NCBI RefSeq assembly: GCF_003121985.1
Contig: NZ_QEWP01000008.1
Coordinates: forward strand, 124,001-188,000
DNA from: Marinilabilia rubra
Lineage (GTDB): Bacteria; Bacteroidota; Bacteroidia; Bacteroidales; Marinilabiliaceae
Length of the DNA stretch: 64,000 bases
Reading direction: 5' to 3'
Below, piece by piece: positions 16,179 to 48,396 of the stretch (within the stretch, counting starts at the first letter, position 1; each line of letters opens with the position of its first letter). The translations under genes and the position numbers were made by a program. The notes under the pieces are model-generated. The model did not search any database. It was given only the letters and a program-made list of their open reading frames with translations, and was not told the DNA's origin.

Positions 16179-17450
16179 ATGATCAATATACAACAAATCA
16201 AGCAAAGATTCGGTATTATCGGGAATTCGGAGGCCCTTACCCGTGCCATTGATGTGGCCGTGCAGGTTGCTCCTACTGATTTGTCGGTGCTCATTACCGG
16301 TGAAAGTGGAACCGGTAAAGAGTCCTTTCCTCAAATAATTCATCAGTATAGTATTCGCAAACATGGTACTTATGTGGCCGTAAACTGTGGTGCGATACCT
16401 GAAGGAACCATTGATTCAGAGCTTTTTGGCCATGAGAAGGGAGCTTTTACAGGAGCATACTCCGACCGGAAGGGGTATTTTGAAGAAGCCAATGATGGTA
16501 CCATCTTTCTGGATGAGATAGGTGAGCTGCCCCTGGCTACGCAGGTACGCTTACTTCGTGTTTTGGAAACCGGTGAATTTATGCGTGTAGGATCTTCACG
16601 TATTATAAAAACAAATGTCCGTGTTGTAGCAGCAACCAATGTCAATCTTGAAAAAGCCATTGATGAAGGGGATTTTAGAGAGGATTTGTTTTACCGGTTG
16701 AATAGTGTCCCTATTAATATACCCCCGTTAAGGGATAGGGTTGAAGATATTTACCTTTTATTTAGGAAGTTTGCATCCGATTTTGCAGATCGTTACAGAA
16801 TGCCTGCTGTTAAGCTGGATGAAAGTGCACGGGAAATGCTGGAGCGGTATAGATGGCCCGGCAATATTCGTCAGCTCAAAAATATTACAGAACAAATTTC
16901 TATTATTGAAAAGGAGAGGGTCTTAACTGCCCACGAACTAGAAAGGTATTTACCTTACCATAAAGGTGATAATTTGCCGGCTTTAATTGGGGGCCATGAG
17001 CCAACCGGAGGGACAGACTTTTCAACAGAAAGAGAAATACTTTATAAGGTGCTTTTTGATATGAAGCGCGATATGAATGATCTGAAAAAGCTTGTGCTCG
17101 AGATAATGCAGCATGGCAATGACGTTAGTACGGAAGGTGAAAACGCCGAGATTATTCAAAATCTTTATCAGGAAACAGGCGAGGATTTGCATCGTGCTGC
17201 ACCTCTGGTCAATAAGGGGGCTATGATGCCCTACAATCAGACTAAATCAGAACAAAATACTCATCACAACCATATAGAGGATACTGAAGAATTTGTTGAA
17301 GAATCGCTTTCACTGGAGGATAAAGAAGTGGAGCTGATTCAAAAAGCATTGGAGAAACATGCAGGTAAACGCAAACTTGCTGCAAAAGAATTAGGTATCT
17401 CCGAACGAACGCTTTACCGAAAAATTAAGGAACATAATATTGATGGATAA
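16179..17450 (+). CDS. Sigma-54-dependent transcriptional activator
   Basis: The 423-residue protein is an AAA+ enhancer-binding protein without an N-terminal receiver or sensor domain. The ATPase region (about residues 10-245) has Walker A GESGTGKES with Lys47, the sigma-54-contacting loop GAFTGA at residues 88-93, Walker B TIFLDEIGEL, and the WPGNIRQLKN segment. A linker of ~100 residues follows, then a Fis-type helix-turn-helix at the C-terminus (RKLAAKELGISERTLYRKIK). It remodels RNA polymerase-sigma-54 complexes. Lacking a sensor, it is probably controlled by its own level or by a partner. It is five bases from the LptE-like gene, so it heads an operon with lptE, a TPR-like gene and secG. 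Confidence 0.93.
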   Translation: MINIQQIKQRFGIIGNSEALTRAIDVAVQVAPTDLSVLITGESGTGKESFPQIIHQYSIRKHGTYVAVNCGAIPEGTIDSELFGHEKGAFTGAYSDRKGYFEEANDGTIFLDEIGELPLATQVRLLRVLETGEFMRVGSSRIIKTNVRVVAATNVNLEKAIDEGDFREDLFYRLNSVPINIPPLRDRVEDIYLLFRKFASDFADRYRMPAVKLDESAREMLERYRWPGNIRQLKNITEQISIIEKERVLTAHELERYLPYHKGDNLPALIGGHEPTGGTDFSTEREILYKVLFDMKRDMNDLKKLVLEIMQHGNDVSTEGENAEIIQNLYQETGEDLHRAAPLVNKGAMMPYNQTKSEQNTHHNHIEDTEEFVEESLSLEDKEVELIQKALEKHAGKRKLAAKELGISERTLYRKIKEHNIDG

Positions 17451-44862: not shown

Positions 44863-44938
<76 letters not shown>

Positions 44939-45085: not shown

Positions 45086-45161
<76 letters not shown>

Positions 45162-46276: not shown

Positions 46277-46696
46277 TTAAGATTTTTTGCTGCAAATATT
46301 AAATGCTTCAACATCGAGCATCCAGTCCTGGACGGTTAAAATTTCCATCTTGTCTTCAAAAAGTCGTTCATCCAGCATCCAGCTTTCAACTTCTATCATT
46401 TCTTTTGAATCTGAAAAAAGGGTTTCGTCAAGCATCCAGTTTTTAACCTCAATTCTGGATTCAACCAAATAGTCAAAGTTGAGCATCCACTCTTTTACTT
46501 CCATTATTGCGTACTCTGTTTCAAATGTGTTCTCGTCCAACATCCACTCAGCTATTTCAAGGTTCTCCTCTGTTGCTTCATTTATGACTGAAAGAACATT
46601 TTCTGATGGAGGCAGAAGTTCGTTGTTTGGATTGGTTGCATTGACGTTAATGGTTAAAGCGGTAAAGATGATGGTGAAAAATACTGAAGTTTTCAT
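46277..46696 (-). CDS. Secreted 19-residue WML-repeat protein A
   Basis: The 139-residue protein has a Sec signal peptide (MKTSVFFTIIFTALTINVNA, cleavage after residue 20), a linker, then five copies of a repeat with Trp at residues 51, 70, 87, 106 and 125. Spacing is 19, 17, 19 and 19. The unit reads E-[IV]-x-x-W-M-L-[DN]-x3-[FL]-x4-5-E. The product is acidic. No lipobox is present; one Cys lies near the C-terminus. I know no family with this repeat. An unusually good Shine-Dalgarno, AGGAGG (46705-46710 on the minus strand), sits eight bases before the ATG, rare for this phylum. A paralogue lies at 47344-47718. Confidence 0.85.
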   Translation of the reverse strand: MKTSVFFTIIFTALTINVNATNPNNELLPPSENVLSVINEATEENLEIAEWMLDENTFETEYAIMEVKEWMLNFDYLVESRIEVKNWMLDETLFSDSKEMIEVESWMLDERLFEDKMEILTVQDWMLDVEAFNICSKKS

Positions 46697-46704
46697 ATCT
46701 AATT

Positions 46705-46710
46705 CCTCCT
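46705..46710 (-). promoter_or_regulatory. Strong Shine-Dalgarno of WML-repeat gene A
   Basis: The minus strand reads AGGAGG with eight bases to the ATG. Nearly all other genes in this window have A-rich leaders without such a site. Confidence 0.7.
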
Positions 46711-46749
46711 GTTTTAATTTTAAATAATTGTTCTTGTTAGGTTATTAAT

Positions 46750-46759
46750 CAATGCTTGT
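46750..46759 (-). promoter_or_regulatory. Conserved decamer upstream of WML-repeat gene A
   Basis: CAATGCTTGT (minus strand ACAAGCATTG) lies 53 bases before the start of gene A. The same decamer is 49 bases before gene B, and a third copy on the plus strand is at 45345-45354 upstream of the frameshifted gene. Confidence 0.5.
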
Positions 46760-46955
46760 GCCAAAAAGTGTAATAAGCAGTATTGTAGTTGTTTATGTTG
46801 GCGTGGGTGTTGTTTTGAACATAGAAAATTGTACGGAGGCGTAACAATATAGTGTGCGAAATCGAACGATGATTTTTCATTTAATAATCCAGGGAATGAT
46901 TTCGTTTAATTACCTCGAAGTATTTTGGCTCGTATATTCTAAAAGACATCATGAG

Positions 46956-47038
46956 ATTAAACTCAAATCAAACTCAATATAAAGTCATATTAAACTTTAA
47001 TTAAAAACGGTTATAATAGACTTTAATTTGAGTTTAAT
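46956..47038. repeat. AT-rich inverted repeat
   Basis: ATTAAACTCAAAT (46956-46968) and ATTTGAGTTTAAT (47026-47038) are perfect 13-base inverted copies with 57 bases between. The interior repeats AAACT and TTTAAT words. It may be a regulator-binding site or a long hairpin. Confidence 0.6.
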
Positions 47039-47343
47039 ATGCGTTTATCATGAATTAGTGCCTTTCCTGTTACAAACAAGAATGGAAGATGACCGAAAGA
47101 AGATTGCCGGTGAGAAAAGAATAGAAGGAGACAGTGATTACAAGCAAGACCGAACATGTGAAAATGTTTCAGCATGAGTCTTAATTTGTAGCATTGGGAA
47201 GTGCCGGTATTAATTCGGAATAATCACACCTAAACAGCTTTCTGGAGATCGGGAAGGATGTCAGGAGAGATACCTGGACAATAATGGCTGCCTCGGGGGC
47301 TTTGGGAGTACGCAAGTGATTGATGATGAGTGTTTGTGGGGTG

Positions 47344-47718
47344 TTATTTCTTCTGGAGTGCTTCCGGATCCAGCATCCAGTCCTCAATCTCTATGATCTC
47401 TTCATCAGAGGTGAAATCCTCAGGGGTTAACATCCAATCTTCAATTTCTACCAATTCTTCAGTTTTTTCAAATTCTGATTCATTGAGCATCCACTCTTCA
47501 ATCTCCAGAAGCTCCTCTTCTGTCTCGAATGATTCAATATCTAACATCCAGTCAGCGATTTCGGTGAAAGATTCCTCATATTCATTAGTGTTTATGTATT
47601 CGAAGAAATTAGCATTCAATCTGGCTAGTGTTTTGGTCAGGTTCAGGTTCGGATTTTCAGCATTAATGTTGATGGTTAATGCAAGGGCAATGGCGGAAAA
47701 AATAGCTGCGGTTTTCAT
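47344..47718 (-). CDS. Secreted 19-residue WML-repeat protein B
   Basis: The 124-residue paralogue of protein A has a near-identical signal peptide (MKTAAIFSAIALALTININA), a ~30-residue linker and four repeats with Trp at residues 57, 76, 95 and 114, exactly 19 apart. The unit is EIEDWMLxxxxFxxxEELLx; it is markedly acidic, with few basic residues until the final Lys-Lys. A strict period and the conserved Trp-Met-Leu suggest a chain of short amphipathic helices, each presenting one aromatic patch. The mature protein should be periplasmic or secreted. Function is unknown. The sharing of leader, repeat and upstream decamer with gene A shows recent duplication and common control. Confidence 0.85.
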   Translation of the reverse strand: MKTAAIFSAIALALTININAENPNLNLTKTLARLNANFFEYINTNEYEESFTEIADWMLDIESFETEEELLEIEEWMLNESEFEKTEELVEIEDWMLTPEDFTSDEEIIEIEDWMLDPEALQKK

Positions 47719-47767
47719 GATATAAATTTTTTAGTTTCGTTCGATTAGAGTATTCCAATAGATGTGC

Positions 47768-47777
47768 CAATGCTTGT
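47768..47777 (-). promoter_or_regulatory. Conserved decamer upstream of WML-repeat gene B
   Basis: CAATGCTTGT as at 46750, in the same orientation and at nearly the same distance (49 bases) from the start codon. Confidence 0.5.
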
Positions 47778-48058
47778 AACCAATTGTAGGGTAGGTGCTT
47801 AGGTTGAGTGTTTTGACGTTAGGGCAAAGGATTAATGTTCGTTTCTGCAACAAGTAAATGTTCGATTTCGGACATGCTTTTCAAGCCTGTTTCAAGGGTC
47901 AATTACTCAAAAATGAGTATGGACAAAAGGCCAATTCCTAAATAAATTTTGGTTTATATGGATAAGAGGGCTCTGTTCTGTGCCTCTGTCTTGGATGAAT
48001 TGTTTGACATTGAGGGGAATCGTCTTATGATTTTATAAGCGTTCGAACGATAATTGAA

Positions 48059-48223
48059 AAAAGGAGTTATGAAAAGAATTGTTGTGATTTTGCCGGGATT
48101 GGTCAAATATTGAACATCAGCCGCCATACTGTAGACATTCATCGTCGAAATATGCTGGCTAAATCCCGCCTTTGCAACACCGCTGAACTCATCGCTTTTT
48201 CAAACGAAAACCGTCTGCTTTAG
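48059..48223 (+). pseudogene. Remnant of a LuxR-type helix-turn-helix regulator
   Basis: The frame ending at TAG 48221-48223 encodes GIGQILNISRHTVDIHRRNM followed by LAKSRLCNTAELIAFSNENR. This is the recognition helix and C-terminal helix of a GerE/LuxR domain (compare the family pattern IA..L.IS..TV..HR.N...K). Upstream the frame is closed by TGA at 48056-48058, and the first helix (CCDFAG region) is degenerate. No N-terminal domain is found in any frame. It is a decayed regulator, possibly once controlling the WML-repeat genes. Confidence 0.7.
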
Positions 48224-48396
48224 ATATTTTTTTGTCATCCGGGAATTCATAAATCCCTTTTTAAGAAGCCTGTTCAATAATTTACCGGTGATGAAAATCA
48301 CCGCCAAAATGCTATTTCAGTCCCAACCTATTTTAGTTGTTTGCGTACAATGATGGGTTATCACTTTATTGATTAACAGAAAGGTTAAGCGGTTTG

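Follow-up and report, generated by a model that had tools for sequence, protein, structure and literature searches.

A family of small, acidic, apparently exported repeat proteins in Bacteroidales and its predicted sigma-54 regulon

The question raised by this locus is what Marinilabilia rubra does with two small proteins, A and B (Table 1), in which an apparent signal peptide is followed by a row of similar units, each bearing one Trp-Met pair (WM). They lie in a stretch of 64,000 nucleotides, called the window here. The minus-strand reading frames described in the first-pass annotation were confirmed at the same coordinates, as was the unit motif E-[IV]-x-x-W-M-L (five copies in A, four in B), and the spacing of the Trp residues, 19/17/19/19 in A and 19/19/19 in B, matches what had been noted. 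The two are paralogues, 42% identical over 123 residues; Met-Leu follows every Trp in both mature proteins, and the observed WML counts were reached by none of 200,000 composition-preserving shuffles. The plus-strand ORFs overlapping them (47330-47725, for instance) are shadows of the repeats and rich in Ser. Sec signal peptides have n, h and c regions and an A-x-A type site, with Q at +1 in many bacteroidotes; candidate sites such as ...NVNA and ...SISA-Q were read by eye, and both paralogues begin with a signal-peptide-like segment, as had been claimed. A third WM copy in the source genome (G000:C34:19207-19560) lies between isocitrate dehydrogenase and an SDR gene. The units of B are old, to judge from their mutual identity of 47-58% in amino acids and 49-63% in nucleotides; that nucleotide identity, together with the output of Tandem Repeats Finder, which gave weak short arrays only, led to the rejection of a tandem array at DNA level or a recent expansion in the window. 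A scan of viral contigs returned no matches. Elsewhere the window holds two tandem tRNA-Phe (GAA) genes (44863-44938 and 45086-45161) and, on the plus strand at 48041-48225, a LuxR-type HTH remnant (NISRHTVDIHRRNMLAKSRLCNTAELIAF) with no open gene around it, upstream of a hybrid histidine kinase at 48394.

A and B are members of an undescribed Bacteroidales family whose proteins are small, acidic and apparently exported. With a search profile built from tandem pairs of WM units, relatives were detected in 32 of 71 genomes from the window's taxonomic family and in 15 of 393 sampled across the order; at phylum level, among 345 evenly sampled genomes, only the window's own genome matched. The initial impression that the pattern fits no recognised family was borne out by searches of Pfam, NCBIfam and the PDB, which gave no fitting model, no solved relative and no strong match to a characterised repeat family: the window proteins had nothing above the curated cut-offs of Pfam and NCBIfam, two relatives nothing above cut-off in NCBIfam, and the first member of set A3 nothing above cut-off in Pfam (its other members had only weak scattered matches), while the best PDB match, over 19 residues, was not significant (E=0.1). 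A literature search for the motif found no paper containing it.

Over 62 proteins and 323 units the family keeps the motif L-x-[IV]-E-x-W-M-[TL]-[DN]-x3-[FWY], with L/I at -5, I/V/L at -3, E at -2 (86%), W M, T/L at +2, D/N at +3 and F/W/Y at +7; the units were located by WM itself. The strict 19-residue period first proposed turns out to be local to the window proteins, as Trp-to-Trp distances over the 323 units are mostly 17-31, with peaks at 19-21 and 25-26, and the motif alone is constant. The acidic character was confirmed, the net charge of the mature part averaging -30 over the 62 proteins, and copy number varies among relatives as anticipated. Because orthologous positions are kept between genomes and dN/dS is 0.09-0.15 for the closest orthologue pairs, which points to purifying selection, the genes can be taken as real and constrained. 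One ten-unit relative (L044:9553-10356) contains a near-identical 37-residue double unit in tandem, and therefore offers evidence of recent copy-number growth; another (L116:7938-8378) has near-perfect 25-residue units.

WM genes look monocistronic and occupy conserved but functionally unrelated positions, among them icd-WM-SDR, the M16 peptidase/gpmI region, mdh-WM, and settings with cyclophilin or PorP-like neighbours. Since these neighbours are functionally unrelated, they were rejected as partners, and the synteny shows vertical descent only. The loci, read by eye, also bear on whether the proteins could be multicore precursors, with units that would be cut out as multiple copies of a bacteriocin or of a secreted peptide signal. 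Such a precursor would fit the recurrence of a conserved core between linkers that vary, in a copy number that varies too, and also the common promoter of exporter operons (below). We nevertheless regard it as very improbable: the linkers are acidic and variable, neither a constant cleavage site nor a basic processing site separates the units, the N-terminus resembles a Sec signal peptide, and no maturation enzyme was recognised in the loci read, in agreement with the earlier remark that no RiPP enzyme lies near the genes.

What the genes share is found upstream of them. A palindrome, TGTTCG-N4-CGAACA, is followed 86±2 bp on by a predicted sigma-54 promoter, TTTGGCACA-N4-TTGA, and at no more than 5 mismatches this composite of upstream activating sequence (UAS) and promoter precedes 49 of 61 WM genes versus 1 of 531 control ORFs (Fisher p=6e-59, computed over genes that are not phylogenetically independent). 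The sole positive control ORF is the divergent neighbour of a WM gene, with the palindrome 107 bp from a sigma-54-like site. Promoter regexes proved too strict, detecting 17 of 59. The distance from palindrome to promoter is 84-88 bp in all 49 genes, and 86 or 87 in 45 of them; the consensus reads TGTTCg.tttCGaACAcc...TTGTt.Ca....cG.aCa ... TTTTGGCACA.C.aTTGatatA. The signal spans several families of the order (L113, L114, L116, L119, L122, L124), and 12 of the 61 genes are without it. A -24/-12 element (GG...TGC/TGA near the start) is thus predicted from sequence, with upstream enhancer sites likewise predicted and a cognate bacterial enhancer-binding protein (bEBP) indicated by co-occurrence, and the WM genes are very probably under sigma-54 control. 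The first-pass annotation, right about a family of small acidic proteins, had missed this common promoter and enhancer architecture.

Table 1. WM-repeat genes of the window and their predicted control elements
Feature	Position	Strand	Description	Basis
WM-repeat protein A	46277..46696	-	139 aa; apparent signal peptide, then five W-M-L units	ORF, repeat spacing, paralogy with B
WM-repeat protein B	47344..47718	-	124 aa; apparent signal peptide, then four W-M-L units	ORF, repeat spacing, paralogy with A
Predicted sigma-54 (-24/-12) promoter of A	46749..46765	-	TTTGGCACAAGCATTGA, 0 mismatches to family consensus, 52 bp before ATG	
Predicted enhancer palindrome (UAS 1) of A	46853..46868	-	CGTTCGATTTCGCACA, 87 bp before promoter element	
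Predicted second enhancer site (UAS 2) of A	46830..46847	-	TTGTTACGCCTCCGTACA	Conserved in promoter consensus
Predicted sigma-54 promoter of B	47755..47771	-	ATTGGCACATCTATTGG, 36 bp before ATG	
Predicted enhancer palindrome (UAS 1) of B	47859..47874	-	TGTCCGAAATCGAACA, 87 bp before promoter element	
Predicted second enhancer site (UAS 2) of B	47836..47853	-	TTGTTGCAGAAACGAACA	

The genome has seven strong Sigma54_activat matches, and among the bEBP loci inspected convincing UAS palindromes were seen only beside G000:C45:163026-164399, which encodes an NtrC-type regulator with receiver, Sigma54_activat and Fis HTH domains and the motifs GENGTGK and GAFTDA (not GAFTGA). A bEBP inside the window (16179-17450) was rejected as the regulator, since it has no evident receiver domain and lacks UAS in its surroundings. 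The chosen locus was read in 12 other genomes, and its order, ABC permease, ATPase, UAS sites, regulator and two-TM kinase, is syntenic over the 13; a fourteenth stretch (L213) is a paralogue with a different layout. The ATPase gene is divergent from the regulator, with an FtsX/MacB permease (MacB_PCD and FtsX domains) behind it where within reach; Rex follows the kinase on the other strand, and L209 has an extra gene between ATPase and regulator. Of the 13 orthologous loci, 11 have UAS palindromes upstream of the regulator when up to 2 mismatches are allowed. By hydropathy, the two TM helices of the kinase are only a few residues apart, with almost no loop between them.

Every one of the family's 32 WM-bearing genomes has an orthologue of the regulator (E<=1e-180), as do 12 of its 39 WM-less genomes, whereas the other 27 have none (Fisher p=2e-10, a value that ignores phylogeny); in genus g3 five genomes have both WM genes and regulator and four have neither, so that the split falls within a genus. 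In the order sample the regulator occurs in 57 of 393 genomes, including 9 of the 15 that bear WM genes (p=4e-5) and 48 of the 378 without detected ones, and because of these last the WM proteins are to be seen as an accessory output of the regulon, not its core. Outside the family, the regulator (67-70% identity) accompanies signal-bearing WM genes in 6 of 6 genomes, and is found in 1 of 7 whose WM genes lack the signal (p=0.005). That its presence there tracks the signal is the strongest evidence that the regulator reads the site, and G000:C45:163026-164399 is probably the activator of the WM genes.

As predicted outputs of a sigma-54 response regulator, with UAS sites also beside the regulator itself, the WM genes resemble zraP. 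ZraP and CpxP are periplasmic accessory proteins of envelope-stress systems (PMC10848872), and an exported WM protein might, as they do, damp or reset its sensor, be it the kinase or the ABC partner. Such a feedback ligand seems to us improbable given that the kinase offers hardly any periplasmic loop for binding, that no WM gene adjoins the regulator in the loci read, and that the regulator occurs in many genomes where WM genes were not detected.

The predicted regulon extends further. The strict pattern gave 4 matches in the source genome versus none for the reversed control, and 38 versus 2 in the 71 genomes. The signal also precedes a MacB-type ATPase/permease/permease/HlyD/TolC operon, a 168-aa secreted protein and a secreted TPR protein, with a spacing of 74-75 bp, about one helical turn shorter, for the last two; a few additional matches, inside genes, look like chance. 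The 168-aa protein (L157:7722-8228, G000:C14) has conserved Cys and no Pfam or NCBIfam match; with orthologues near L172-L175, L180, L183 and L184, and also in genomes without detected WM genes, it may be the core output of the regulon. The TPR protein, of about 450 aa (L159:8702-10066, G000:C26; also L177 and L182), is encoded divergently from an AMP-binding (long-chain acyl-CoA ligase-like) gene. At L160:8823-9151 (G000:C24) a perfect TGTTCG-N4-CGAACA has a sensor gene on one side and, on the other, an ABC ATPase operon backed by RND efflux genes, and this locus is a possible further member.

The best NCBIfam match of the regulator is PrsR (TIGR02915; 396.9 bits, below the cut-off of 502.6). 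A PEP-CTERM gene has been found to be RpoN-dependent, with PrsK-PrsR as its presumed activator (PMC9850573), and by comparison the WM proteins could be small secreted adhesive or matrix parts of the cell surface. We think this unlikely, as WM sequences show no evident sorting signal at the C-terminus, as neither exosortase nor polysaccharide genes were recognised in the surroundings of WM genes or of the other regulon members seen, and as membrane-anchored WM variants exist.

These variants (L108-L111) have an uncleaved-looking N-terminal TM segment which, if the positive-inside rule holds, places the repeats in the periplasm, and we infer the same site for the family. As to the shape of the WM proteins, in two AlphaFold models (pTM 0.21 and 0.18; pLDDT 57-59) the signal peptide is helical and short helices stand isolated at the motifs, with no fold; the underlying alignments were shallow (13-16 sequences), and could miss a fold, including one formed on binding or oligomerisation. 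The range of 17-31 residues argues against a strict solenoid with a 19-residue period, and together with the isolated helices of these two shallow-alignment models it counts against the stacked array on a repetitive ligand that had originally been envisaged. Spacing that varies while the motif is kept, and the lack of a predicted fold, suggest flexible beads rather than a stack.

Trp-Met is the sole fully fixed part of the motif, with the reservation that the units were located by it, and Trp/Met sites for Cu(I) are known in CusF. Each acidic unit might accordingly bind Cu(I) through its Trp-Met pair, or the chain might serve as a sacrificial methionine pool. Either role is hardly likely: neither metal nor Msr genes were recognised among the regulon members and neighbourhoods seen, a density of about one Met in 20 residues is low for such a pool, and the conserved L-x-[IV]-E-x frame would be superfluous if Met alone mattered.

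Our main reading, to which we give a probability of about 55%, is that the WM proteins belong to a sigma-54 regulon, are induced by stress and, once exported, act by multivalent binding, as a chaperone or sponge. The regulon itself (promoter, regulator and targets) is, as a prediction, well supported by comparative genomics. The NtrC-type regulator and its kinase would bind the paired TGTTCG-N4-CGAACA sites and activate sigma-54 promoters some 86 bp downstream, those of the WM genes, the MacB-type exporter operon, the 168-aa secreted protein and the TPR protein. The signal would be envelope damage or antimicrobial peptides. We lean towards such an envelope-stress cue because the two-TM kinase with almost no loop is paired with a divergent FtsX/MacB ABC transporter, because the targets include MacB-type exporters, and because of the neighbours of WM genes in one lineage without the signal: in G586 two unlinked WM genes (L120:7289-8970, L121:6260-8800), neither with the sigma-54 signal, are each followed by PadR and PspC-domain genes. 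The PSP literature ties PadR and PspC to envelope stress (PMC11237479), and the WM family appears there to have changed its regulator but kept an envelope-stress setting. In the last and weakest step, the unfolded chain, in the periplasm or at the envelope, would present a string of acidic-hydrophobic motifs to hydrophobic or cationic partners, that is misfolded envelope proteins or amphipathic peptides, and multivalency would make the binding strong; this sponge or chaperone role is put forward tentatively. That the WM chains are a new class of periplasmic sponge, unfolded and acidic, turned on together with exporters and soaking up antimicrobial peptides or unfolded envelope proteins, is a more speculative and rather doubtful proposal.

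If true, this last proposal would give the Bacteroidales a sigma-54 envelope-defence system in which a kinase resembling the intramembrane-sensing type works with an NtrC-type regulator. To our knowledge, little has been written on the sigma-54 regulons of Bacteroidota. A survey from 2025 reports enrichment at the level of COGs, including COG0577, an antimicrobial-peptide transport permease, in Bacteroidia (PMC12316311). For one predicted regulon of Bacteroidales it is now possible to name a specific regulator, its binding site, the promoter spacing and a set of targets, among which an undescribed protein family stands out most. The regulon, and likewise what the WM motif does, can therefore be tested directly in culturable Bacteroidales.

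Several known systems invite comparison. The WM genes of G586, each followed by PadR and PspC, resemble PspC/HAAS-PadR/Toastrack loci, an arrangement seen in that one other lineage only and unlike that of the window's genus. With the PEP-CTERM proteins of PrsK-PrsR the WM family shares small size, export, scattered loci and RpoN promoters, as well as a regulator nearest the PrsR model; that regulator falls below the PrsR cut-off, however, and WM proteins have neither exosortase nor PEP-CTERM tail (C-termini read; Pfam and NCBIfam scans empty). ZraPSR and CpxP offer a small periplasmic protein under a two-component system, with a regulator in ZraSR that is of the sigma-54 type, as here (PMC10848872), but there is no sequence relation (no LTXXQ/Spy/CpxP match in Pfam scans, and no LTXXQ-type helical fold in the AlphaFold models), and the WM proteins differ in their repeat architecture and in being unlinked to the regulator gene. 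Bce modules for antimicrobial peptides (BceRS-BceAB) have a regulator of the OmpR type and a BceB-type permease whose extracellular loop is single and large; neither was found, and the regulator locus instead has a sigma-54 activator and a MacB/ADOP-like permease with its unit duplicated, in a Gram-negative bacteroidote host. What it does share with them, by hydropathy and by synteny in 13 genomes, is a two-TM kinase, within the Bce limit of about 25 aa for the extracytoplasmic loop and almost without one, encoded next to an ABC transporter of the FtsX type (PMC10314905).
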